Source of the DNA: Peptoanaerobacter stomatis
GTDB lineage: Bacteria; Bacillota; Clostridia; Peptostreptococcales; Filifactoraceae
Length of the DNA: 64,000 nt
Assembly: GCF_000238095.2 (NCBI RefSeq)
Contig: NZ_JH815225.1
Location: 1,780,449-1,844,448, forward strand
Direction: 5' to 3'
Part shown: positions 50,400 to 64,000 of the stretch, piece by piece
Layout: each line of letters starts with the position of its first letter
Numbering within the stretch: position 1 is the stretch's first letter
Program-made: the position numbers and the translations under genes
Notes under the pieces: model-generated
The model's input: only the letters and a program-made list of their open reading frames with translations
What the model was told of the DNA's origin: nothing
Database searches by the model: none

Positions 50400-53300
50400 T
50401 TAATTCTTTAATTTTATTGTGTATTCAGAATAAGTGTTTTGCTCATATAAATTTCCTCTTATTCTTATTTTCATACCATTTTCTAAGCGTTTATGAGGAT
50501 TTTCGATTAATCTTCCGTCTTTACCGTATACGGTAACATATGGTGTAGTAAGCATTTTACGAAGCGGGGAATGAATAGTTAGTGCTGCTGAAAAATCTTT
50601 TAATACTGCGCCTTGTGGGACATCTTGTATCTCGTTTCCTACCATTTTTCCAAATATACCGCCGTTTTTAATCTCGCCTATGTTTAGTTTTCTGTGTACA
50701 GCTATGACTTCTTCTTGGTAATTTGAATTTTTTATTGTTAGTTTTATTTGATTTCCATCCAATTTATCTATATCCTTCAGTTCTACTTCATACTCTTTAT
50801 TAGGAGCTGATATAATTTTGAATTCTTTTTTAATATCTTTCCAAGGATGATTTCCAAACCAACCTTCTATTTTTATATCGCTATCAGTTAGTGATGTATT
50901 ATCTAATACTTTTATCTTTAATTTTGTAGTATCTTTTTTATATGCTTCACCATCTTGTGATATATCGAATTTTTTATCTATTACTTTTAATGTTCCGCCG
51001 GATTTAACCTCACGAGTTGCAACATATTTTCCGTCACCTTTTACTTTTACGCTCAGAGATTTTCCTTTATCTTCTTCTTTGACAATATAAGTTCTCTGAT
51101 TTTCGCCTGCTATTTCTTGCTCATTTCCATCATTGTCTACTCTGTACCATCTATATGTTACATTGTCATACTTATAGTCTGCGCTTATATCTTCAAGTGA
51201 TTTCTTTCCGTCAGGTAAAAATTCTACAAGAATTTTAGCGGTTAATTTATCACCTACCTGCGGTGCAACACCTGTCTTGCTAAAACTTACGGAATCAATA
51301 TTTTCTTTTATTGTTATATGGTATTCAACACTTTTTTTATATATGTGTGAAAATGCAGCTTTAGGCTCAACTGAAATATAAAAACCGTCATCTAAATGGC
51401 TGTTTTTATCAACGTCTTGACCGCTATTTTTTACTGATATGTCGAAGCTGTTTGTTACGTCTTGATTTTCTGAAATAATCTTAATTTTATTTTCAAAGGC
51501 ACCTACTGTTATCACTCTGTCGGCTATTATTGTGAATTTATCTATGGAATATGATCCTGCCGTTAATGTCCACTCTTTTCTTTTAGGAATGTTTACATTG
51601 ACATTTGTCAATCTTGTGCTTGAATATGCTGCTAATTTGCCTGTTGAATTGTCAAATTCGTACACTGTAAGGTAGTAAGGCTTTTGTTCAAATTTATCAA
51701 CTATATCTTTGCAACGCTCTTCAGTTATATCAATATCTTGTCCTGCAGGTTTAAGCATATCGGCTGTTGTTAAATCAATTAAATTTACTCCTGATGATAC
51801 ACTTCCTCCTTTAGGGATATTTTGCATATTATCTGTAATTGAATATTTAAAATTGACTTGTGCTTCCAATGTATTGGAAGTTGTAACAGATATATTGGTA
51901 TGGAATATTTGGCTTGCCGGTTTGATTGTAGTTTTCAGATACATATCCAACTTGTTTATTTTTTGTGTAGGTGTACTTTCTTTTTGTCCTTGGTAATTAC
52001 CTGTTCCGTTTACTACTACTCTTATATATTTGTCTGCATCGCTTTCTGTAAGTGTGTATACACTTTGTGTAGCATTTGGTATATCTGTGTAATTTCCGTT
52101 TCGTTCAGTTGCTATCTGCCATTGATATGTTACTGTTGCGCTCTGTGGTTTTACTTTTGCTTTAAGTGCTTCTCCCACTGTTTCATTTCCGTCTATCTCT
52201 ACTTCTGTTACAGTAATTTTTTCTATTTCTATAGGAGTGCTTTTTGCACTTCCTGTGTAGCCGTCTTTTCCTGTTGCCACAACTCTTATGAATTTACCGG
52301 CTTGGTCTTTTTTTACGGTGTAACTGTAACCTGTTGCATTAGCTATATCTGTATACTCGCTGTCATTCGCATTTTGTTTATCTGCTATTTGCCACTTATA
52401 ATCCGCTCTTGCATCAAGCGGAGATATATCTGCCGTAAGCTCAGAATTTACTTTTGCAACTCCTGATATTGTTACGCTGTCTATATTTTTTTGTTGTGAA
52501 GGAGGTTGAGTCATTTTTTCTATTTTATATCCTTGGCTTTCTTTTTCTCCTGTATAGTTGTTTATTCCTTTTACTACCACTCTTATATATTTTTCTTGCT
52601 TATCTGCTGTTACTTTATATGTTTTATCTGTTTGTCCTGCTATATCTTGATATCCTGCATTTTGATTATCCGATACTTGCCATTTGTATTCTACATCTGC
52701 TCCGGCAGGTGTAACTTCTGCTGTTAGGATTTCGTCTACTTTTGTATTTCCTGTTATTGATACACTGTTTATATCTATCTTCATTTTTTCTATTTTTCCG
52801 ACTTTTTCTTTTACTTGTGCGGTTGAGTTTACATTTAATCCTATAGGTGTATCTGATTTGTTTTCTATCTTATCTACTACAGCAGTTCCCTGTACATTGA
52901 TTGATACTTTTTTATTAGTTTGTGAAGGTACTTCTATGTTTTCAACTTTTATATCTTTTATATTTAATGCTGATTGTGTTTTTATTGTTTTTATTGTTCC
53001 TTGTCCTGATATGGTATTTGATGTTGAGTTTATATCCGGTGTAAATTCGTCTATTGTTGTTTGTGAATCTTCCATCTTTATATTAGAAGTTTGTTTAGTT
53101 GTTTTTACTGTTTTATATTCGCCTTTTAGCTTTACTTCTTTATCTGTTGCTATAGTAACTGTAGGTGATTGATTTTGTGAGTTTGTAGGCACTTCTATTT
53201 TTGCACTGCTTTGTACGTTTATATTGCCTACAAAGTCCAATGCTTTGAATGTGCTTGATGCAACTCTTAGTATATTTACATTTTCTGCCTGAAATTGTGA

Positions 53301-54326
53301 TTCAACATGTGCATTAGGTGCATCTATTGTGAGTGTGTTAAGAACTGTTCCGCTTGTGCCGATACCGTCATCATTTAGTTTTATACTTGTTGTATTAGGT
53401 GCTGTAAGATTGATATTATCAAGCCCGTCTTGTGTATTATTTATAGTTATTTTAAGTTCTTCTTTAGGAGCATAGTTTAAATCTACATCTTTTTCTATTT
53501 TTCCGTCTACAGTTATGTCGTTATAACCGTCTTTTAATGCTTGCACCAATTCTTGCGCATTTTTTACCGTTTTTGCTCCACGTGCTTTTTGAATTGAAGG
53601 TGTGCTTGACGTACCGCCACCGCCTCCTCCACCGCCGCCTGATGATGTTGTTTTCTTTTGTTCAGTTTTTTTAACTTCTTCTTTCTTTTCATCATCTTTT
53701 TTTGTGTCTTGTTTCATTTCGTTTTGTTCTTTTTGAGTAAGAACTTTATCCAATATAGTAACGGCTTCCGCTCTTGTAAGTTTGTTGTTTGCCGCAAATG
53801 TATTGTCCGGGTAACCTGACATATATCCTTTTTCTATCATTAATGATACTGAACTTTTCGCCCAAGCTGGTATTGTATTTATGTCACTGAACATCAGTTG
53901 TTTGTCTGACTTTTCATTCAGTATGTTTGCTATAAATACTGCCGCCTCCGCTCTTGTAAGTGTGGTGTTAGGCATAAACATATTGTCTGGAGTTCCGTTT
54001 GCATATCCGTTTCCTACAGCTATTTGAACATCTTTGTAGAACCAATCCGTTTCTTTTACGTCACTGAATTTCACTTCACCTTGTTTAGTAAGCTTCAAAG
54101 AAGTGTTAAGTATGTGTATAAACTCTGCTCTTGTTACTTGTTTGTTCGGCTTGAATGTTCCGTCCTGATATCCTGCGATAAGACCTTTTTCTTGCCAAGA
54201 AGTTATAGTTTTTTCAGCCCAGTGTCCCTTGGTATCTGTTGATATTGCGTGTGAAGGTATAGCCGGTATGGTAAGTGACATAGCTAAAGCTATTGAAAGC
54301 ATCTTTTTAGCTTGTATTCTTTTCAT
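50400..54326 (-). CDS. SLH-domain surface protein with repeated Ig-like domains
   Basis: A 1308-residue exported protein. After a signal peptide ending SHA there are three SLH domains (about 30-75, 88-135, 147-192; each with GHWAEK- or DWFYKDV-type openings and TRAEF/TRAEA motifs), which bind secondary cell-wall polymers. A Lys/Glu-rich linker and a run of nine Gly follow. A repetitive beta-rich region (about 250-500) comes next, then three tandem units of about 85 residues (each YKWQ/YQWQ ... Y.RVVV.G..Y.G) and a fourth diverged copy near 1100. AAAGGATA precedes ATG 54326. It is probably an adhesin or S-layer-associated scaffold; the ligand is unknown. Confidence 0.9.
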   Translation of the reverse strand: MKRIQAKKMLSIALAMSLTIPAIPSHAISTDTKGHWAEKTITSWQEKGLIAGYQDGTFKPNKQVTRAEFIHILNTSLKLTKQGEVKFSDVKETDWFYKDVQIAVGNGYANGTPDNMFMPNTTLTRAEAAVFIANILNEKSDKQLMFSDINTIPAWAKSSVSLMIEKGYMSGYPDNTFAANNKLTRAEAVTILDKVLTQKEQNEMKQDTKKDDEKKEEVKKTEQKKTTSSGGGGGGGGGTSSTPSIQKARGAKTVKNAQELVQALKDGYNDITVDGKIEKDVDLNYAPKEELKITINNTQDGLDNINLTAPNTTSIKLNDDGIGTSGTVLNTLTIDAPNAHVESQFQAENVNILRVASSTFKALDFVGNINVQSSAKIEVPTNSQNQSPTVTIATDKEVKLKGEYKTVKTTKQTSNIKMEDSQTTIDEFTPDINSTSNTISGQGTIKTIKTQSALNIKDIKVENIEVPSQTNKKVSINVQGTAVVDKIENKSDTPIGLNVNSTAQVKEKVGKIEKMKIDINSVSITGNTKVDEILTAEVTPAGADVEYKWQVSDNQNAGYQDIAGQTDKTYKVTADKQEKYIRVVVKGINNYTGEKESQGYKIEKMTQPPSQQKNIDSVTISGVAKVNSELTADISPLDARADYKWQIADKQNANDSEYTDIANATGYSYTVKKDQAGKFIRVVATGKDGYTGSAKSTPIEIEKITVTEVEIDGNETVGEALKAKVKPQSATVTYQWQIATERNGNYTDIPNATQSVYTLTESDADKYIRVVVNGTGNYQGQKESTPTQKINKLDMYLKTTIKPASQIFHTNISVTTSNTLEAQVNFKYSITDNMQNIPKGGSVSSGVNLIDLTTADMLKPAGQDIDITEERCKDIVDKFEQKPYYLTVYEFDNSTGKLAAYSSTRLTNVNVNIPKRKEWTLTAGSYSIDKFTIIADRVITVGAFENKIKIISENQDVTNSFDISVKNSGQDVDKNSHLDDGFYISVEPKAAFSHIYKKSVEYHITIKENIDSVSFSKTGVAPQVGDKLTAKILVEFLPDGKKSLEDISADYKYDNVTYRWYRVDNDGNEQEIAGENQRTYIVKEEDKGKSLSVKVKGDGKYVATREVKSGGTLKVIDKKFDISQDGEAYKKDTTKLKIKVLDNTSLTDSDIKIEGWFGNHPWKDIKKEFKIISAPNKEYEVELKDIDKLDGNQIKLTIKNSNYQEEVIAVHRKLNIGEIKNGGIFGKMVGNEIQDVPQGAVLKDFSAALTIHSPLRKMLTTPYVTVYGKDGRLIENPHKRLENGMKIRIRGNLYEQNTYSEYTIKLKN

Positions 54327-55057
54327 AAATTAAATTATCCTTTCAGATTAAAATATATAATAAAAATTAAACATCAAAAAAATATTAGACTTAATGCCTA
54401 TAAATAGACTATGTGTTTATAAATTAAAGACATATAATTAAATATTGCGAAAATAATTATTTAGAGAAATCATTGTGGTATATATCTTTATATTTTTGGT
54501 GTTTAGAATTAAACTGAGAAGTATTTTACCAAAATTTCACATTATAGGCAATAGTTTTTACAAAAATAATTTATATTTTTATAAAAACTATTGAATAAAG
54601 ATTAGTCTATATACCTAAAATAATAAGGTTTATGCGGTTTTTATTTTATAAAATATATTGGAGGGATTTTATATAAATTTTAAATTGTATTGTGAATTAA
54701 TTGTAAAAATAATTTTAACGTATCTTAATTTAATAGGGGTTAGTATCACAAATATAATTATTGAATTTTTTGTATATAAACAGATATAAATAAGTTTCAT
54801 AATTATTTCAAATTATATTGATTTTTAAATTTTTAATAGTATAATGTAAAAGCTGAATATTATTAAATTTATATTGTAATAAAATTAAAAGATAGTTACA
54901 TATGTTGCAATATAATGTATATTGTTTTAAAATTTTTAAAGCTTTAACTTTGATATAAATTGTTTTTAATTTTTATAAATTTGATGTGGATTGTGTATAT
55001 GAAGTGTTTATTCCGGGAAAGGAGATAATTACATATAGATGTAATTTTGTATATAGT
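54327..55057. other. Divergent intergenic region, very AT-rich
   Basis: Over 700 bases lie between the divergent SLH and amidase genes. Apart from the hairpin at 54549-54593 and the SD and start-stop motif just before the amidase, I see no gene, riboswitch or consensus promoter. Confidence 0.4.
54549..54593. other. Long inverted repeat in a divergent promoter region
   Basis: CAATAGTTTTTA-C-AAAAATA and TATTTTT-A-TAAAAACTATTG form a stem of about 20 base pairs with one mismatch and a small loop. It is upstream of both flanking genes, so it is not the terminator of either. Confidence 0.6.
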
Positions 55058-56923
55058 ATGAAGATAAAAAATAATGTGTTTTTTTTGATGTGTTTTTTAT
55101 TTTTGAATTTTATTGCTTTAACTTCAAGCTATGCCAAGTTGCCTATAGACTATGATAATTTTACGGTAAACGGTAAGATTGTAAAACTTCCTATAGCTGA
55201 GCTTGTTATAGACGGTCAATACATAAATAAATCGACTGTAGGAGTAGATCCTGTTACTATTAATTCAAGAACTCTTGTGCCCGTAAGAGCATTATCCGAG
55301 AAATTGGGTTATCACGTTACATGGCTTGAAGCGGTGCAAAAAGTAACTATAGAAAATTCAAACAAGAAGATAGAATTATTCATAGGAAATGTGAATGCCA
55401 AAATAGATAATAAAAATGTGACAGTTACAGATTCTGTTGCACCTATGATAATAAATAACAGCACTTATGTGCCGATAAGGTTTGTAGTAGAAAATATGGG
55501 ACTCTCTATAGATTATGACGCAAAACAAAATAAAATTTCTTTAAATTCAAATGGTTTGGAGGAACTTTTATTCGACGAGAAAACTCAATTATCTCAAGAA
55601 AAAAATATAGTGAATAATTCCAACGAAGATTTGTCTGTCCCAAAAGATGTCGATAGATTTATAACTCCTGAAAAACCGACAGCTCCGACTAAACCGACAG
55701 TTCCGGAAGTTCCAAGTGTATCTGATGACAGCAATAAAGCTGATGCAAGATATGAAGTGGGTTTGGATTTTTCTGCTTTGAATGGCGAAGTTTTAAAAGT
55801 TGTACAAAATGATGGCGAATTGGATGTAAACTATTTTTATCTTACTGAACCGAAAAGACTTATTATAGATGTAAAAAATGCTAAATTAAATGCCTATGAA
55901 AGCGGAGAAAGAAAATTAGACGGCAAAATATTTTTATCATCCACTGCTTCATATGATTCAAATAGCAATTATACAAGATTTTCAGTGGTTTTAAATGAAG
56001 ATGTAAATAATAATGAAATTAAAATATTAAAAGACAAGAGTGCATTGAAGGTTGAAAAAGTGACTGTGATTAAACAAGGCGAAGAATTTAAGTATGAATT
56101 TGACCGAAAAACAGGAAGTATAAGTGTAACAACATCAAAAGAAGAAACTATTCAAAATTTGTCATCTGACAGCAATATGCTTGAATTTAATATAGCAAAA
56201 TACAAAATAAAACTGAACACAGGTGATTTTAACATATCCAACAGATTGGTAAAGAATATGACAGTTTCAGAAGAAGGCAATAACTATGTCATTAAAGTTG
56301 CATTAGGCGATAGAGTTACAGCGGATATAAATAAAATTTCAGCTACTTCAACTATAATAAAACTTAAAAAACAAGACAGGCAAACTCCACGAATAGTTTT
56401 AGATCCCGGTCATGGAGGCAAAGATGCAGGTGCTATAAACAAAGAGTTTAATATAAATGAGAAGACACTTAATATTCAAGTTGCACGCAGATTGAAACAA
56501 AAACTTGTAGACGCCGGTTATGAAGTTTTTATGACAAGAGAGGACGATACATTTGTACCGCTAAATGACATAGCGAGCTTTTCAAACAGTAAAGATCCGG
56601 ATATATTTATATCAATGCATCACAATTCAGCAGATAGTAATTCGTCAGCAAGCGGTATAGAGAGTTTTTATCACATATCATCAGACAGCAAACAGTTGGC
56701 GCAAATAATTCAAAAACATCTAATATTATCATCTAAAGCGGTTAATAGAAATATTAAATCCATGCCGTTTGTTGTTATAAAAAAGACAACATCACCGGCT
56801 ATATTGGTAGAATTAGGCTTTATGTCAAATAAAGCAGAAGTACAGAAAAATATGTCACAGGAATATCAAGAGTTACTGGCAGACGCAATTTTATCCGGCG
56901 TAAATGAATATTTTGGCAGATAA
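55058..56923 (+). CDS. N-acetylmuramoyl-L-alanine amidase (Amidase_3) with substrate-binding repeats
   Basis: A 621-residue secreted cell-wall hydrolase. A signal peptide (VFFLMCFLFLNFIALTSSYA) precedes a copper-amine-oxidase-N-like domain (about 45-155, two TLVPVRAL / TYVPIRFV units), a Pro/Thr linker, an AMIN-like domain (about 230-330), and the C-terminal zinc amidase: LDPGHGGKDAGA, NEKTLNIQVARRL, FISMHHNSAD and ILVELGFMSN, which supply the zinc ligands and catalytic Glu. It cuts the bond between muramic acid and the peptide. ATG 55058 gives a clean signal peptide but has no close SD; AAAGGAGATA lies 32 bases upstream, followed by an ATG-TAA start-stop. Confidence 0.9.
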   Translation: MKIKNNVFFLMCFLFLNFIALTSSYAKLPIDYDNFTVNGKIVKLPIAELVIDGQYINKSTVGVDPVTINSRTLVPVRALSEKLGYHVTWLEAVQKVTIENSNKKIELFIGNVNAKIDNKNVTVTDSVAPMIINNSTYVPIRFVVENMGLSIDYDAKQNKISLNSNGLEELLFDEKTQLSQEKNIVNNSNEDLSVPKDVDRFITPEKPTAPTKPTVPEVPSVSDDSNKADARYEVGLDFSALNGEVLKVVQNDGELDVNYFYLTEPKRLIIDVKNAKLNAYESGERKLDGKIFLSSTASYDSNSNYTRFSVVLNEDVNNNEIKILKDKSALKVEKVTVIKQGEEFKYEFDRKTGSISVTTSKEETIQNLSSDSNMLEFNIAKYKIKLNTGDFNISNRLVKNMTVSEEGNNYVIKVALGDRVTADINKISATSTIIKLKKQDRQTPRIVLDPGHGGKDAGAINKEFNINEKTLNIQVARRLKQKLVDAGYEVFMTREDDTFVPLNDIASFSNSKDPDIFISMHHNSADSNSSASGIESFYHISSDSKQLAQIIQKHLILSSKAVNRNIKSMPFVVIKKTTSPAILVELGFMSNKAEVQKNMSQEYQELLADAILSGVNEYFGR

Positions 56924-57106: not shown

Positions 57107-57691
57107 TTCAAAATTTTTAGAATATATCAAAATGCAGTAAACGCAAAGAATAGAAAATATTTTATCGAAAATATAATAAACAACACAAAAATATATTAAA
57201 AAAATAAATTAGACGTTCTATTGACGAAATTTAATTTAATGATATAATTATCTCCGAACATTGCAAACATAGACACATCTGATATTCTTTTTATTTTTAA
57301 CAAAAAAAGTATAATATTGTTTTTTTTAAAAGCATATGACAAAAATATAGTTTATTATTTAACAATATGTGATTTGAATGTATAATATTATATATTGCTA
57401 ATTGTAACACACTTGTAATAATCAAAACGTATTAATTATGTAATTAGCAACAATAAAAATAGTTAAAATATATTAAAAAAAATATTTGCTGATATAATAT
57501 ATATAAAATGTGTTATAAAAATATTTTTTATGATAATATTATTGTATAAGCCTTATAAAAATATAAAATAAGGAAATTGTTTTTTATTTTTAAAATAGAC
57601 TTTTATTAGACGTAATTAAAATATAATTCTAACTACATAATCTTACACAATTGTTTTATACATTTTTTACGAGTGAATATAGGTGATTTTT
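57107..57691. other. AT-rich leader region of the racemase gene
   Basis: Almost 600 bases of extreme AT content precede the racemase gene and show no reading frame or conserved structure that I can name. A weak promoter may lie near TATAAT-like sequences around 57490-57560. Confidence 0.35.
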
Positions 57692-58522
57692 ATGAAACTC
57701 AATTTTGTGAAAGTAAATCCTGTAGAAAATATGACGGTATTTATATCGAATGAAGTGGATAGAAATAGTCATATTGAAATTTCAAAAAAACTTATGGATT
57801 ACAGCAATATTTATGCTGAGCAAGTAGGATTTATCGAAAAACCTGCATATACATATGATGATTCCTGTAAGGTTAGATTGCAGATGATGGGTGGGGAGTT
57901 TTGTGGAAATGCCACAAGATCTTTAGGAGCGTATTTAGTGCATAATAATCATGAGAGCGTAAAAAAAGCGGATGATAAATATTATGTAAATATAGAAACT
58001 TCCGGACTTAATCAGGTGCTTACTTGCGAGGTGGAGAAGGTAAACGATAATACTTATATGTCGAAAGTTGAAATGCCACTTATTATAAGGAAACCCAGAG
58101 AAATTATCCTTAAAGATAAGTATAAGCTCATAAGGACAGACTTCAGCGGAATTACTCACTTTATAGTAAACTCGGCTGATGTGGAAGATAAGGACTTGCT
58201 TTTTGATATCGTGAAAACTTATATTGAAGCTGAGGAATATGAAGCATTCGGTATAATGTTTTATGACTTTGAAAAAGAGTATCTGGAACCTCTCGTGTAT
58301 GTTAAAGCTACTGACAGTTTGTTTTGGGAAAGGAGTTGTGCTTCAGGCACATCGGCATTTGGAGCTGCACTCACATATATAAAGCAGGAAAACCTTGTTA
58401 TAGATGTAAAACAGCCCGGAGGAATACTTAAAATAGAAACTTGCTTTAGCGAAGGGGATTTAAAAAAGATAGTATTAAACGGTGAAGTTGAGATAGTAGC
58501 TCAAGGTACTGTCTATGTATAA
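57692..58522 (+). CDS. DapF-fold two-cysteine amino acid racemase, candidate histidine racemase
   Basis: A 276-residue PLP-independent racemase of the diaminopimelate epimerase fold. The two catalytic cysteines are visible: Cys71 in GGEFCGNATRSLGAYL and Cys216 in WERSCASGTSAFGAAL, at the spacing usual for this fold. The DapF motif ACGSGACA is altered and the diaminopimelate-recognition GAGET is missing, as in the CntK-type histidine racemases. The next genes are a YuiF-like (histidine-type) permease and histidine ammonia-lyase, so a role on histidine is the best guess. AGGTGA lies five bases before ATG 57692. The fold is sure; the substrate is inferred from context. Confidence 0.75.
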   Translation: MKLNFVKVNPVENMTVFISNEVDRNSHIEISKKLMDYSNIYAEQVGFIEKPAYTYDDSCKVRLQMMGGEFCGNATRSLGAYLVHNNHESVKKADDKYYVNIETSGLNQVLTCEVEKVNDNTYMSKVEMPLIIRKPREIILKDKYKLIRTDFSGITHFIVNSADVEDKDLLFDIVKTYIEAEEYEAFGIMFYDFEKEYLEPLVYVKATDSLFWERSCASGTSAFGAALTYIKQENLVIDVKQPGGILKIETCFSEGDLKKIVLNGEVEIVAQGTVYV

Positions 58523-58667
58523 TTTTGAAAGTACTGCTGATTTCAGCGTATTTATATATTATAGTTAAGGTTTTTTAAATATGATTTGATAGACTTTTTT
58601 AGGTTGAAAGGTATTTTTTATATGAATTTTTATATCAAAGGCGTTTAAAAAATCAAGCTAAAAAATC

Positions 58668-58685
58668 TGCACAATATATTGTGCA
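58668..58685. promoter_or_regulatory. 18-bp perfect palindrome before the permease gene
   Basis: TGCACAATATATTGTGCA is a perfect palindrome 26 bases before the permease start and 15 before its SD. It has no following T-run, so it is more likely an operator than a terminator. No second copy was found by eye before the racemase or hutH. Confidence 0.6.
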
Positions 58686-58711
58686 AAATATTAATTTTAG
58701 GAGGTTTTGAT

Positions 58712-60037
58712 ATGTTATTATTTAACCCTGTTGTTATATCGGTTATTGTAATGTGCGTACTTTGCTTGATCAAACTTAATGTACTTCTTGCAATATTAGT
58801 ATCAGCAGTAGTTGCAGGTGTTGCAGCGGGAATGCCTATTTATGCACCCGGAGCTGACAACAACATAATTGATGTACTTATTTCTGGTATGGGGGGAAAC
58901 TCAGCGACTGCACTTAGCTACATATTACTTGGAGCATTCGCAGTGGGACTTGCAAAATCAGGTCTCGGAACAATATTATCAGTAAAATTATCAAAGGTAT
59001 TATCAGGTAAAAAATTCTTTATGATTTTTGCTATAGCGGTTATATCTTGTTTTTCACAAAACTTGGTACCTATACATATAGCGTTCATACCTATATTGAT
59101 ACCACCACTACTTGGCTTAATGAATAAGCTTAAAATAGACAGAAGAGCTATGGCTTGTGCACTTACATTTGGACTTAAAGCGCCATATATAACACTACCT
59201 GTAGGATTTGGTCTAATATTCCATGAGATATTGGTAAAAAATATTTCTGAAAACGGAGTAGAAATATCAATATCTGATACACGTTCAGTTATGTGGATAG
59301 GTGGATTATCAATGTTGCTTGGTTTGATATTCTGCGTTTTTGTACTATACGGAAAAGACAGAGAGTATAAAGACCTTCCTATAATGGGAGCAGAAGATGC
59401 ACCTAAGGATGTTGTAATGACTAAAGAAGCTTGGGGAGCATTAGCAGGTTGTATCGTTACAGCAGTAGTTTCAATATTTACAGAATCACTTCCTTATTCA
59501 GCTATTGCAGGTCTATTCGTAATGGTTGCTACAGGTTGCGTAAAATGGAAAGATATAGATGAAGTTATGAACGGCGGTATAGGAATGATGGGATTCATAG
59601 CTTTCGTTATGTTGGTTGCATCAGGATATGCTACTATACTTAGACAAACAGGAGCGGTTGAAGAGCTTGTTACATCGGCAGCAGCTTATATGCAAGGTTC
59701 AAAAACGGTAGCAGCATTTATAATGCTTATGATAGGTCTACTTATAACAATGGGTATAGGTACATCGTTTGGTACTATTCCAATAGTTGCAGCAATATAT
59801 GTACCGCTTTGCAACCATATGGGATTCTCACCGGCATCTATAATATTACTTATAGGTATTGCAGCAGCACTTGGTGATGCAGGTTCACCGGCATCAGACT
59901 CAACACTTGGACCTACATCAGGTCTTAATGCTGACGGACAACACGAACATATATGGGATACATGCGTTCCTACATTTATAGCTTACGACATACCTTTAGT
60001 AATAGGTGGAGTTATTGGAGCTACAATATTTGGATAA
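58712..60037 (+). CDS. YuiF-like permease, probable histidine transporter
   Basis: A 441-residue polytopic carrier of the NhaC/ion-transporter superfamily. Marks: MGGNSATALSYILLGAFAVGLAKSG, FSQNLVPIHIAFIPILIPPLL, MGIGTSFGTIPIVAAIYVPL and the C-terminal GDAGSPASDSTLGPTSGLNADGQHEHIWDTCVPTF. Relatives called YuiF are often annotated as histidine permeases, and the neighbours here (a racemase and hutH) agree. AGGAGG precedes ATG 58712; an in-frame GTG 33 bases upstream lies within the palindrome region. A strong terminator follows. Transport specificity is inferred. Confidence 0.78.
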   Translation: MLLFNPVVISVIVMCVLCLIKLNVLLAILVSAVVAGVAAGMPIYAPGADNNIIDVLISGMGGNSATALSYILLGAFAVGLAKSGLGTILSVKLSKVLSGKKFFMIFAIAVISCFSQNLVPIHIAFIPILIPPLLGLMNKLKIDRRAMACALTFGLKAPYITLPVGFGLIFHEILVKNISENGVEISISDTRSVMWIGGLSMLLGLIFCVFVLYGKDREYKDLPIMGAEDAPKDVVMTKEAWGALAGCIVTAVVSIFTESLPYSAIAGLFVMVATGCVKWKDIDEVMNGGIGMMGFIAFVMLVASGYATILRQTGAVEELVTSAAAYMQGSKTVAAFIMLMIGLLITMGIGTSFGTIPIVAAIYVPLCNHMGFSPASIILLIGIAAALGDAGSPASDSTLGPTSGLNADGQHEHIWDTCVPTFIAYDIPLVIGGVIGATIFG

Positions 60038-60050
60038 TATATAAAAACTA

Positions 60051-60086
60051 AATATATAGCCTATTTATACAAATAGGCTATATATT
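60051..60086 (+). terminator. Terminator between permease and hutH
   Basis: AATATATAGCCTATTT and AAATAGGCTATATATT form a perfect 16-base-pair stem with loop ATAC, 14 bases after the permease stop. Only AAAAAA follows, so on the plus strand it may act as a processing or weak terminator site; hutH likely has its own promoter. Confidence 0.7.
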
Positions 60087-60306
60087 AAAAAATACATCAG
60101 AAAAAAATTGGTAATACAGGATTTGCTCATAAAACTTTGAATTTATGCAGTTAAATTATATGGAAGTCTTAATTTTGAATAAACTGTAGTAGATTTGTAC
60201 ACATAAATTTATAAATTTTATAGAACAAATGGATAAATTCTAATCAGAGATATTTTATACAAGTTTTAAATAAAAAATTAAATATAAGGATTCAATTTAT
60301 ATAAAT

Positions 60307-60336
60307 ATATTAGGGTTTTGATATTGCCTAATATCA
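60307..60336 (+). promoter_or_regulatory. Overlapping palindromes upstream of hutH
   Basis: ATATTAGG (60307-60314) pairs with CCTAATAT (60327-60334), and TGATATT (60319-60325) pairs with AATATCA (60330-60336). The two share bases, so only one can form at a time. They are about 100 bases before hutH, in a 400-base gap that otherwise shows nothing. Confidence 0.45.
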
Positions 60337-60434
60337 TTTAGTGTGTAAAAAATATTAATTTGAAAGCAATACATGCTTAAATTTAAGTATGGTTTATATA
60401 AAAATTTCTTAAATATAAAAAGGAGAACAATAAG

Positions 60435-61979
60435 ATGAAAGAGTTTAAAGAAATTGTACTTACAGGTAATGACCTTACACTTGAAGAATTGGTCGCAGTT
60501 ACAAGACATAATGTAAAAGCTGTTTTAAGTGAAGAAACAATAAAAAACATAGAAGACTCAAGAAAAATAATAGATGATATAGTAGAAAATGAAAGAGTAA
60601 TATACGGAGTAACAACAGGATTCGGAGAATTTTCAAAAGTAAGCATATCAAAGGAAGACTGTAAAACTCTACAAGAAAATCTTATACGTTCACATGCTTG
60701 TGGATATGGAGATCCGCTCACTACAGATATAGTAAGAGCTATAATGCTTACAAGAGTAAACGCATTGTCAAAAGGATACTCAGGAATAAGACTTATGACT
60801 GTTCAAACACTTCTTGCTATGCTTAATAAAGGCGTTCACCCAATTATACCTGAAAAAGGATCACTTGGAGCATCAGGAGACCTTGCACCTTTAGCACATA
60901 TGGTACTTCCTATGCTTGGACTTGGAGAAGCTGAATATCAAGGAACTGTTATGACAGGTAAAGAAGCTATGGAAAAAGCTGGAATACCTACAATTCAGTT
61001 GGATGCAAAAGAAGGATTGGCTCTTATAAACGGAACACAAGTTTTAACATCAGTAGGAGCATTAGCGACTTATGACGCAATAGAATTATTAAAAGTTGGA
61101 GATATAGCAGCAGCACTTTCATTAGAAGCACTTAGAGGAATAACAGATGCATTTGATGAAAGACTTCATGTAATAAGAAATCATCATGGACAAGTAGTAA
61201 CAGCAAGAAATATGTTAAAATTAGTAGAAGGTAGCACATACACTACAAGACAAGCTGAACTTAGAGTACAAGACGCATACTCACTAAGATGCGTACCTCA
61301 AATACATGGAGCAAGTAAAGATACAATAGCTTATGTAAAATCAAAAGTAGAAATAGAGCTTAACTCAGTAACTGACAATCCTATAGTAACAAGAGAAGGC
61401 GACGTAATATCAGGCGGAAACTTCCACGGAGAACCTATGGCACAACCATTTGACTTCTTAGGAATAGGCGCTGCGGAAATAGCAAACGTATCAGAAAGAA
61501 GATTAGAAAGATTAATAAATCCACAATTAAATGATCTTCCTGCATTCTTAACAAAACACGGTGGACTTAACTCAGGATATATGATTACTCAATATGCAGC
61601 AGCAGCATTAGTATCAGAAAATAAAATACTTGCTCATCCTGCATCAGTAGATTCAATACCGTCATCAGCTAATCAAGAAGACCTTGTAAGTATGGGAACA
61701 ATAGCAGCAAGAACAGCAAGAGATATAGTAAGCAATGCAAAAAGAGTATTGGCTACAGAATTAATGGCAGCTTGCCAAGCTATAGATTTCAGAGCTGACA
61801 AAGGCTTCAAATTAGGAAAAGGAACACAAAAAGCTTATGATGTAATAAGAGAAGCTTCTAAATTCATCGAGGTGGATACAGATATTCAAATGTATCAAGA
61901 GTTAAACAAAGTAACAGAAGTAATTACAAACGGTAAATTATTGGAAGCGGTAGAATCGGCAGTAGAATTAGAATACTAA
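60435..61979 (+). CDS. hutH: Histidine ammonia-lyase
   Basis: A 514-residue enzyme that removes ammonia from L-histidine to give trans-urocanate, the first step of histidine breakdown. The self-made MIO cofactor comes from Ala146-Ser147-Gly148 in KGSLGASGDLAPLAHM. Tyr57 in IYGVTTGFGEF and His87 in RSHACGYG, the residue typical for histidine rather than phenylalanine or tyrosine lyases, are present; INGTQ and NFHGEPMAQPFD are further family marks. AAAGGAG precedes ATG 60435. The remaining hut genes (hutU, hutI, ftcD or hutG) are not in the window. A strong terminator follows. Confidence 0.96.
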   Translation: MKEFKEIVLTGNDLTLEELVAVTRHNVKAVLSEETIKNIEDSRKIIDDIVENERVIYGVTTGFGEFSKVSISKEDCKTLQENLIRSHACGYGDPLTTDIVRAIMLTRVNALSKGYSGIRLMTVQTLLAMLNKGVHPIIPEKGSLGASGDLAPLAHMVLPMLGLGEAEYQGTVMTGKEAMEKAGIPTIQLDAKEGLALINGTQVLTSVGALATYDAIELLKVGDIAAALSLEALRGITDAFDERLHVIRNHHGQVVTARNMLKLVEGSTYTTRQAELRVQDAYSLRCVPQIHGASKDTIAYVKSKVEIELNSVTDNPIVTREGDVISGGNFHGEPMAQPFDFLGIGAAEIANVSERRLERLINPQLNDLPAFLTKHGGLNSGYMITQYAAAALVSENKILAHPASVDSIPSSANQEDLVSMGTIAARTARDIVSNAKRVLATELMAACQAIDFRADKGFKLGKGTQKAYDVIREASKFIEVDTDIQMYQELNKVTEVITNGKLLEAVESAVELEY

Positions 61980-62474: not shown

Positions 62475-64000
62475 ATGAAATTAAGAAGTAAAATGTTGGC
62501 ATTTATAGGATTGCCTGTATTATTTGTATTATTGATACTTTCGGTTATATCATACAAATATTCAGACAGCTTGTTAGTGAGTGAATCGGAAAATTCGATG
62601 AAAATGACAGCAGAAAAATATGGCTCAGATATAGAAACACTAATACAAAGCAAAATAGCATATGTAGATGTAATATCATTGGAAATCTCAAAAATGGTAC
62701 CTGAAGAAAAAGAACTTATAGAAGATTTAACTTACTATTCACAAAAAGTTCCTGGTACATTAGGATTTCTTTCAGGCTTTGAAAATGGGAAATATTATGA
62801 CGGAACAGGTTGGGTGCCTGATGCATCATACGACCATACAACAAGAGAGTGGTATAAAGGAGCAATAGGTAAAAATGTCGCTTTTATATCAAAACCGTAC
62901 ACAAATGCTTCAGAAGGTGCAATGGTTGTAACAATAAGTGAGGGGATAAACCCTTTAGACTCTTCAAAACCTAAGGGAGTAGTAGCGACAGATATATCAA
63001 CAAAAGAATTAGTCGAAATGGTAAACAGCATAAAGATAAAAGACACAGGAGCAGCATTCTTGTTAGACGGAGACGGAAACTTTATGGTGCACTCAAAATA
63101 CACACTTACAGACAATATAGCAACAGTAGAAAACGGAGCATTACAACCATTTATGGATAAATTTTTAGACACCGAATCAGACTTTTTTGAGGCAAAAGTA
63201 GGAGGAGTGCAAAGATTTTATTTCACATACCCGATAAAAAACACAAGTTGGGTATTAGCCCTATCAGTACCAAAAGCAGAAGTATTAGAAGGCTCATCAA
63301 CATTAGGTAAATTTATGCTATTAATAAGCATAATATCACTGATAATAGTAATAGCAGTAATATACTTAGTAGCAAACTCAATAACAATACCAATAATAAA
63401 ACTAAGCGAATGCGTAAAAGGAATGGCAGAGTACGATTTAACCCTAACAGAAAAATCAGCCTCAGTAATATACTCAAAAAATAAAGACGAAATAGGAATA
63501 ATATCAAGAGCCTTAATACAAGTAAAAACAACAATGAAAGAAATAATGACAAACGTAAACGATTTGGCAAGTCAAGTATCAGCCTCATCAGAAGAATTAA
63601 CAGCAACAAGTGAACAATCAGCCCAAGGAGCAGAACAAATATCAAGAGCAATAAACGACATATCCCAAGGAGCAATGACCCAAGCAGAAGACATGCAAAG
63701 AGGAGCAGAATCCATGGAAGTAATGGAAAAAGCCCTAAAACAAACAGAAGAAATAATAGAAAAACTAAACCAAACAACAAAACAAGTATACGAAGCAAAA
63801 GAAAACGGAATGACAGCCCTAAGAGGATTAATAAAAGCAACAGAAGAATCACAAACAGCAGCAGGAGGAGTAGCGCAAGTAATCCAAAACACAAACGAAA
63901 GCGCAATAAAAATAGAATCAGCAAGCGACATGATAAAATCAATATCAGACCAAACAAATCTGTTAGCCCTAAACGCAGCAATAGAAGCAGCAAGAGCAGG
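62475..64000 (+). CDS. Methyl-accepting chemotaxis protein, 3' end outside the window
   Basis: A receptor of which 508 codons are visible. After a membrane span (about 7-28) comes an extracellular dCache-like domain of about 250 residues (SYDHTTREWYKGAIGK, FISKPYTNASEGAMVVTIS, GVVATDIS), a second span (about 278-300), a HAMP segment and the signalling coiled coil, cut at the tip [25 protein letters not shown] lies six bases before ATG 62475. From about 63230 on, the coding strand becomes strikingly poor in T with codons ending almost only in A or C, unlike the first half of the same gene. Ligand unknown. Confidence 0.92.
   Translation, partial: MKLRSKMLAFIGLPVLFVLLILSVISYKYSDSLLVSESENSMKMTAEKYGSDIETLIQSKIAYVDVISLEISKMVPEEKELIEDLTYYSQKVPGTLGFLSGFENGKYYDGTGWVPDASYDHTTREWYKGAIGKNVAFISKPYTNASEGAMVVTISEGINPLDSSKPKGVVATDISTKELVEMVNSIKIKDTGAAFLLDGDGNFMVHSKYTLTDNIATVENGALQPFMDKFLDTESDFFEAKVGGVQRFYFTYPIKNTSWVLALSVPKAEVLEGSSTLGKFMLLISIISLIIVIAVIYLVANSITIPIIKLSECVKGMAEYDLTLTEKSASVIYSKNKDEIGIISRALIQVKTTMKEIMTNVNDLASQVSASSEELTATSEQSAQGAEQISRAINDISQGAMTQAEDMQRGAESMEVMEKALKQTEEIIEKLNQTTKQVYEAKENGMTALRGLIKATEESQTAAGGVAQVIQNTNESAIKIESASDMIKSISDQTNLLALNAAIEAARA

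Follow-up and report, generated by a model that had tools for sequence, protein, structure and literature searches.

The stretch of Peptoanaerobacter stomatis DNA analysed here, 64,000 nucleotides of contig NZ_JH815225.1 (further referred to as the window), carries near its 3' end three consecutive genes of the plus strand, coding for a putative histidine racemase, a permease, and the histidine ammonia-lyase HutH. All three were found where the original prediction, made from the letters of the window, had placed them, at 57692–61979 (Table 1). The subject of this analysis is the racemase and its association with histidine degradation. The genome comprising the window (G000) is 2.33 Mb in size, assembled in 3 contigs and 97.4% complete; other genomes are denoted below by G numbers, loci of racemase homologues by L numbers, families by f numbers, and contigs of the window genome by C numbers.

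Table 1. Features of the racemase–permease–hutH locus, in coordinates of the window.
Feature	Position	Strand	Basis
Predicted HisR/CntK-like cofactor-independent histidine racemase, 276 amino acids, ATG start	57692..58522	+	profile score, PDB, tree, model
YuiF/NhaC-type permease, 441 amino acids	58712..60037	+	ATG at 58712 behind a GGAGG site; Pfam
HutH, histidine ammonia-lyase, 514 amino acids	60435..61979	+	curated profile scores, PDB match
Cys71 codon of the racemase, predicted catalytic (HisR Cys67)	57902..57904	+	alignment
Cys216 codon of the racemase, predicted catalytic (HisR Cys209)	58337..58339	+	alignment
Glu43 codon of the racemase (HisR Glu49, CntK Glu46), proposed imidazole contact	57818..57820	+	alignment
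Glu69 codon of the racemase (HisR Glu65), proposed imidazole contact	57896..57898	+	alignment
Glu213 codon of the racemase (HisR Glu206), proposed contact of amino group and imidazole	58328..58330	+	alignment
Ala-Ser-Gly 146-148 codons of HutH, triad forming the methylidene-imidazolone (MIO) group	60870..60878	+	sequence
Promoter-like site TTGACG-16-TATAAT, 11/12 consensus, 5' of the racemase gene	57221..57248	+	consensus match alone

Compared with the NCBIfam models, the racemase scores 221.5 bits with HisR, 173.9 with CntK, and 28.7 with the diaminopimelate epimerase DapF (TIGR00652), the respective cut-offs being 400, 300, and 114.65 bits; as it lies below the cut-offs of both HisR and CntK, it is termed HisR/CntK-like and not regarded as a member of either equivalog. 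No Pfam family, DapF PF01678 included, matches it at E ≤ 1. A search of PDB sequences retrieved the Fusobacterium nucleatum HisR (9CR1/9CR6) with E 4.3e-42 and CntK with E 2.2e-31, the identity of the racemase amounting to 38.7% with HisR, 28.4% with CntK, and 18–21% with six DapFs of relatives. In a quick tree, from which L133 and L134 (belonging to the genomes of L003 and L013) and the truncated L038 were omitted, 94 HisR-like rows are separated from the six DapFs by a branch of full support. Among these rows, the window racemase falls inside a 31-row branch together with F. nucleatum HisR (support 90). Its predicted structure, of a mean predicted local distance difference test score (pLDDT) of 95.3, was compared with CntK and DapF, as proposed in the original prediction; the best match is HisR 9CR1 (Z 35.5, 1.7 Å over 254 residues), followed by CntK (Z 32.6), O-ureidoserine racemase (26.4), and DapF (25.2).

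The predicted pocket agrees with these relationships. Asn13, Glu43, Glu69, Cys71, Glu213, and Cys216 of the racemase align to Asn18, Glu49, Glu65, Cys67, Glu206, and Cys209 of HisR, all proposed to take part in binding and catalysis (PMC11602996), so that the designation as a two-cysteine cofactor-independent racemase is upheld by the alignment. Glu43, Gln44, Glu69, and both cysteines are shared with HisR and CntK. Asn13 and Glu213 are likewise Asn and Glu in all six DapFs, and Glu69 is present in two of them, while the clearest pocket difference is Glu43 with Gln44, not found in the six. Among 97 HisR-like rows, Glu43 is kept in 96 and Glu69 in all, the conservation of Glu69 and Cys71 being biased in the 80 loci found with the seed pattern QMMGGEFC; the seed-free rows are 14 from the genome search plus HisR and CntK.

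Another difference lies just 5' of the Cys216 codon, where the racemase lacks a six-residue loop that in DapF directly precedes the second cysteine. At the same site, the loop is present in all six DapFs of relatives, these being the six of ten DapF loci that passed a motif filter, as GAGxT(L/M)A in five and GCGYTLA in one. Neither the DapF loop residues nor a G-x-GET motif occurs in any of the 97 HisR-like rows, of which L038 is truncated in that region. The original prediction had relied on the absence of GAGET; the exact letters occur in other DapFs, but in none of the six compared. Because HisR is favoured over DapF by the sequence as well as by the pocket residues, the tree, and the predicted structure, the assignment of the window protein as a predicted HisR/CntK-type histidine racemase, and not DapF, is supported, in line with the original prediction. 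On the scores, the missing loop, the pocket residues, and the tree, a DapF or lanthionine epimerase identity was rejected.

The permease matches the Na+/H+-antiporter-family domains PF03553 (E 4e-62) and PF13726, both over the cut-offs in a Pfam search read from 58709 and compatible with its YuiF-type designation, and a search against PDB sequences gave no useful match. HutH scores 667 bits with TIGR01225 (cut-off 539) and 700 bits with NF006871 (cut-off 524), matches PF00221 in Pfam and a histidine ammonia-lyase in PDB (E 7e-119), and has the Ala-Ser-Gly triad at residues 146–148. Moreover, its Tyr57, His87, Asn199, Gln279, Tyr282, Arg285, Phe330, and Glu415 correspond, as matched by motif and not by alignment, to Tyr52, His82, Asn194, Gln274, Tyr277, Arg280, Phe325, and Glu411 of the Geobacillus enzyme. 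Judged by its sequence, HutH is a canonical histidine ammonia-lyase, as had been claimed, an enzyme that prefers L-histidine. In keeping with this preference, histidine ammonia-lyases are said to serve in making optically pure D-histidine (PMC11432326). By analogy with a YuiF-type protein that is the main L-histidine importer of Staphylococcus aureus (SAUSA300_0846; PMC10817146), the permease is probably a histidine importer.

A scan of a genome collection gave 126 loci with racemase homologues, 80 of which were kept. Their neighbours were counted not from open reading frames (ORFs), 16 of the 80 loci having no racemase ORF called, but from tblastn matches (E ≤ 1e-15) to a set of proteins of the window and of neighbouring genes. 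Of the 80 loci, 15 carry both HutH and the permease, 17 the permease, 11 HutU, and 10 each HutI and FtcD. Some records are not independent: L022 equals L135, L008 and L011 are near-copies, and L002 and G001 ([Eubacterium] yurii) are one genome. The conserved arrangement for which a survey had been suggested occurs in four gene orders, namely racemase–permease–hutH (the window, L003, L004, L010, L013, L015, L016, and L020, with 19–44 bp between the racemase and permease matches in the loci of this order), hutH–permease–racemase (L017, L023, L026, L028, and G014/L123), and the racemase divergent from (L008, L011) or convergent with (L009, L012) hutH–permease. They include two deltaproteobacterial records, L026 titled Desulfovibrio and L028 titled Deltaproteobacteria. 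When 19 rows are labelled "linked", L006 and L021 with the permease alone being counted in, this label needs five changes on the tree. In relatives the module often lies inside a larger hut cluster, with hutU, hutI, and a gene for a large BTAD-domain regulator just upstream in L003, L004, and L016. In L004, from Clostridium tetanomorphum DSM 4474, a single stretch comprises hutU–ftcD–hutI, the regulator gene, and racemase–permease–hutH. The window genome and E. yurii, by contrast, have a split cluster; in the latter permease–hutH is near hutU–hutI, and the racemase gene lies elsewhere, adjoining genes for a serine-dehydratase-alpha-domain protein and an SDF symporter (L002, 5355–9081), both of which follow hutH in L003, L004, and L013.

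Two of these neighbours deserve a comment of their own. The serine-dehydratase-alpha-domain protein is only weakly similar to known serine dehydratases; its gene is also near the racemase in L130 (G006), where, as in E. yurii, hutH is not beside it. The regulator, of ca. 1000 amino acids and combining BTAD and TPR domains with an AAA ATPase domain, is encoded in L003, L004, L010, L013, L015, L016, L020, and other hut loci, recurs beside hut genes whether the racemase is present or not, and is a candidate hut regulator.

The association was also followed at the level of whole genomes. A class sample of 393 genomes (racemase E ≤ 1e-25, HutH E ≤ 1e-100), overlapping the locus set in G258, G319, and G197 (the genomes of L003, L013, and L022), comprised 11 with the racemase, 49 with HutH, and 10 with both. 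HutH was thus found in 10 of 11 racemase-bearing versus 39 of 382 racemase-free genomes (Fisher 3.8e-9, uncorrected for kinship; four of the 11 belong to family f37 and three to f44). The permease (E ≤ 1e-10) was looked for in the stretch around the best HutH copy of each genome, and it lies beside hutH in 7 of the 10 racemase-bearing versus 0 of the 39 racemase-free genomes (Fisher 1.4e-6), 8 of the 39 stretches having less than 2.5 kb on one side. Within f37 alone the figures are 3/4 versus 0/8 (p 0.018). The racemase gene is adjacent to the permease–hutH pair in G000, G014, G258, and G319 and located elsewhere in G210, G331, and G386. Among further relatives, the pair was found in none of six racemase-free genomes, three of them 72–84% complete, and in the racemase-bearing G001 and G016.

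In the locus set, the genomes of the first 50 of the 80 loci were checked for HutH, which was present in 34, including all 23 of L002–L024 and both Fusobacterium genomes. The permease lies beside hutH in 20 of the 34 (the 15 linked loci, E. yurii, L005, L014, L021, and L034), and in L006 it lies beside the racemase. Fifteen of the 16 HutH-negative genomes belong to a single branch of 47 rows, in which ABC-transporter parts are recurring neighbours and some members (L044 and four f37 rows) do have HutH; this branch of distant homologues may use the racemase differently. Transporter parts of the amino-acid ABC type (SBP_bac_3, BPD_transp_1, and ABC_tran) are encoded within six ORFs of the racemase in the branch of 30–37% identity (e.g., L040, L052, L057, L062), and the Fusobacterium loci L035 and L049 also have an SBP_bac_3 neighbour.

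The remaining hut genes of the window genome are unlinked to hutH: hutU and hutI lie together near 1.336–1.340 Mb of C1, followed by a formate/nitrite-transporter-like gene, and the formiminotransferase (FtcD) gene lies on C2. Histidinol dehydrogenase gave no match in this genome, with 13 of 14 controls matching, which suggests, on the evidence of one gene, a histidine auxotroph; imported histidine of either hand could thus also feed protein synthesis. A paralogue of HutH, sharing 30% identity with it and having GSIGEADI in place of its GSLGASGD, is encoded outside the window at G000:C1:1360016-1361503 (L122:8005-9504), next to BCCT-family transporter and xanthine-dehydrogenase-like genes, both under the NCBIfam cut-offs. 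It matches PDB 6S7J, an ergothionase of the Treponema denticola type, with 833.7 bits (E 3.6e-250), making this a candidate ergothioneine-degradation locus.

We consider it likely that the three genes constitute a D-histidine utilisation module, in which histidine would be taken up, racemised to L-histidine, and then converted to urocanate. The permease would import histidine, the D form included; the racemase, probably acting from D- to L-histidine, would swap the alpha-proton between its two cysteines; HutH would convert L-histidine to urocanate and ammonia, pulling the reversible racemisation forward; and HutU, HutI, and FtcD, encoded elsewhere, would carry urocanate towards glutamate. The catabolic direction, put forward in the original prediction as the simplest reading, is favoured because linkage to hutH or the hut cluster recurs and because, among the genomes sampled, the permease–hutH pair occurs only in racemase-bearing ones. 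The reported constants of HisR (kcat 250 per s for D-histidine and 74 for L-histidine; KM 24 mM and 4 mM, respectively; PMC11602996) would suit a high-flux catabolic step. Moreover, F. nucleatum depletes both D- and L-histidine, according to a 1999 report cited in PMC11602996, and D-histidine did not restore the growth of its hisR mutant, which, we infer, fits consumption of D-histidine better than its production. That the module is dedicated to oxygen-independent fermentation of D-histidine in anaerobes, with a permease that tolerates D-histidine or is specialised for it, and that this is the role of the HisR branch including F. nucleatum, is a more tentative proposal, to which we would give slightly less than an even chance.

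Several observations weigh against the catabolic module. The racemase scores under the curated cut-offs of the HisR and the CntK model (221.5/400 and 173.9/300), and the sole demonstrated use of such an enzyme, that of CntK, runs from L to D. At the window locus the intergenic gaps of 189 and 397 bp leave a single transcript unproven. HutH is absent from the fetched stretch in 65 of the 80 loci, partly owing to short contigs, and in G001 and G002, of the same genus, the racemase gene is not beside hutH. One of the 11 racemase-bearing class genomes, G157, is without HutH, as are 16 of the 50 homologue-bearing genomes checked, whose homologues are 30–37% identical. No permease was found in the stretches read of G154, G197, and G287 (3 of the 10 racemase-bearing genomes of the class sample), of the further racemase-bearing genomes G002, G006, and G018, and of 13 of the 34 HutH-positive locus genomes.

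The genomes without HutH would also suit the opposite direction, in which D-histidine is made for export or for use in the wall, in a signal, or in a small molecule, hutH lying nearby only owing to a common supply of imported L-histidine. So would the use of CntK in staphylopine synthesis, the lower KM of HisR for L-histidine, and the clumping and slight lag of F. nucleatum cells deprived of hisR (PMC11602996). In that case, however, HutH would compete for L-histidine, the repeated joining of hutH in four gene orders would go unexplained, and the failure of D-histidine to rescue the mutant would be unexpected, and hence this use, offered in the original prediction as an alternative, appears less likely than the catabolic one and on the whole improbable. 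Still a little less probable is a salvage or detoxification role, with a permease for L-histidine, no dedicated uptake of the D form, and a racemase recovering stray D-histidine from other routes. It agrees with L-histidine transport by the YuiF-type relative and with the inhibition of Streptococcus mutans by D-histidine, which slows growth at 1% and has a minimal inhibitory concentration of 2% (PMC12269051), but a plain L-histidine importer would be expected beside hutH in racemase-free genomes as well, where it was found in 0/39 and 0/6.

That the enzyme acts mainly on another substrate, be it diaminopimelate, lanthionine, or a different amino acid, and lies in a histidine context only incidentally, we regard as very unlikely. 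The scores under both histidine-racemase cut-offs and the shared DapF fold allow for it; against it stand the DapF score of 28.7 bits versus the cut-off of 114.65, the absence of the DapF loop from all 97 rows (one truncated there), and the lack of a Pfam DapF match in the window genome with 9 of 14 controls matching. Furthermore, HisR, assayed on 35 compounds, was active on histidine and weakly on lanthionine (PMC11602996). The conserved dap or lysine neighbours that would have spoken against a histidine racemase do not appear in the annotation of 20 recurring families of neighbours, DapA, DapB, and LysA not having been searched for. The CntK-model score of 173.9 and the rank of CntK as second-best structural match point to a staphylopine-like metallophore pathway, membership in which we consider practically negligible, as no metallophore gene lies at the window locus or among those 20 families. 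For the genome as a whole the absence of such genes is tentative, as a search for the CntM family (PF10100) gave no match, but neither did any of its 14 controls, and cntL was not searched for.

The enzyme family, the permease family, and the Hut pathway are already known. Their combination and proposed role were not met with in a search of open-licence literature, most subscription journals being outside its scope, and no article was seen there that connects hut genes with a histidine racemase. The recurrent module proposes a purpose for an enzyme whose role was called unclear by its discoverers in 2024 (PMC11602996). If the fermentation module is real, D-histidine has to be common enough in the habitats of these bacteria to merit a transporter, and the permease, confined to racemase-bearing genomes in our samples, is a candidate D-histidine importer. 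In histidine-fermenting anaerobes, the label "diaminopimelate epimerase" on such genes may be wrong.

As for expression of the locus, the promoter-like site upstream of the racemase gene is one of 33 such sites in the region, versus 35.7 in shuffled sequences, i.e., without enrichment. A strong hairpin is located between permease and hutH at 60051–60086, with a T-tail listed on the minus strand only, and thus gives no evidence of a transcription stop between the two genes. No regulatory RNA was detected in the 64-kb window at the Rfam gathering thresholds. Sigma-54 control, modelled on the HiaR regulon, in which hiaL-hyp-hutH is under this sigma factor (PMC6615313), was rejected for the racemase, since the stretch from 56924 to the start of its gene contains no sigma-54 site even when 2 mismatches are allowed; the whole window has 13 such sites versus a shuffle mean of 7.9. 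The racemase gene is preceded by one for an N-acetylmuramoyl-L-alanine amidase (54986–56923), and farther upstream, at 50400–54326 on the minus strand, lies the gene for a 1308-amino-acid protein, in which three stretches of S-layer homology and a linker rich in glycine occur. Directly 3' of hutH lies a plus-strand gene for a dCache-domain chemoreceptor (62475–63998, open at the window end). Domains of this type often bind amino acids, and it is conceivable that the receptor senses histidine.

The standard Hut pathway starts from L-histidine without a racemase; HutH, HutU, HutI, and FtcD are all encoded in the window genome, and in relatives the racemase gene lies inside the cluster. Catabolic racemases are known in the alanine racemase DadX, which uses pyridoxal phosphate, and in clostridial proline racemase, where the D form is consumed; as proposed here, each supplies the following enzyme of the catabolic route with the enantiomer it can use, though the substrates differ. 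D-Histidine use by Salmonella through D-amino acid dehydrogenase, known from a 1974 title in the references of PMC4836201, also reaches L-histidine metabolism, but by an oxidative two-step route with an enzyme of another family, in contrast to the single cofactor-free step of the putative window route. With SAUSA300_0846 the permease, compared by annotation alone, shares the NhaC/Na+:H+-antiporter type (PMC10817146). S. aureus CntK has the fold and the pocket glutamates of the window racemase, but works from L to D for a metallophore together with CntL and CntM, genes for which were not found at the window locus. F. nucleatum HisR (FN1732; PDB 9CR1, 9CR6) shares with the window racemase the fold, the two cysteines, and the proposed contact residues. 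Its gene forms an orphan operon near folate genes (PMC11602996), whereas that of the window lies with those of the permease and HutH; in two Fusobacterium genomes other than that of the HisR strain, HutH and an adjoining HutU are encoded away from hisR.

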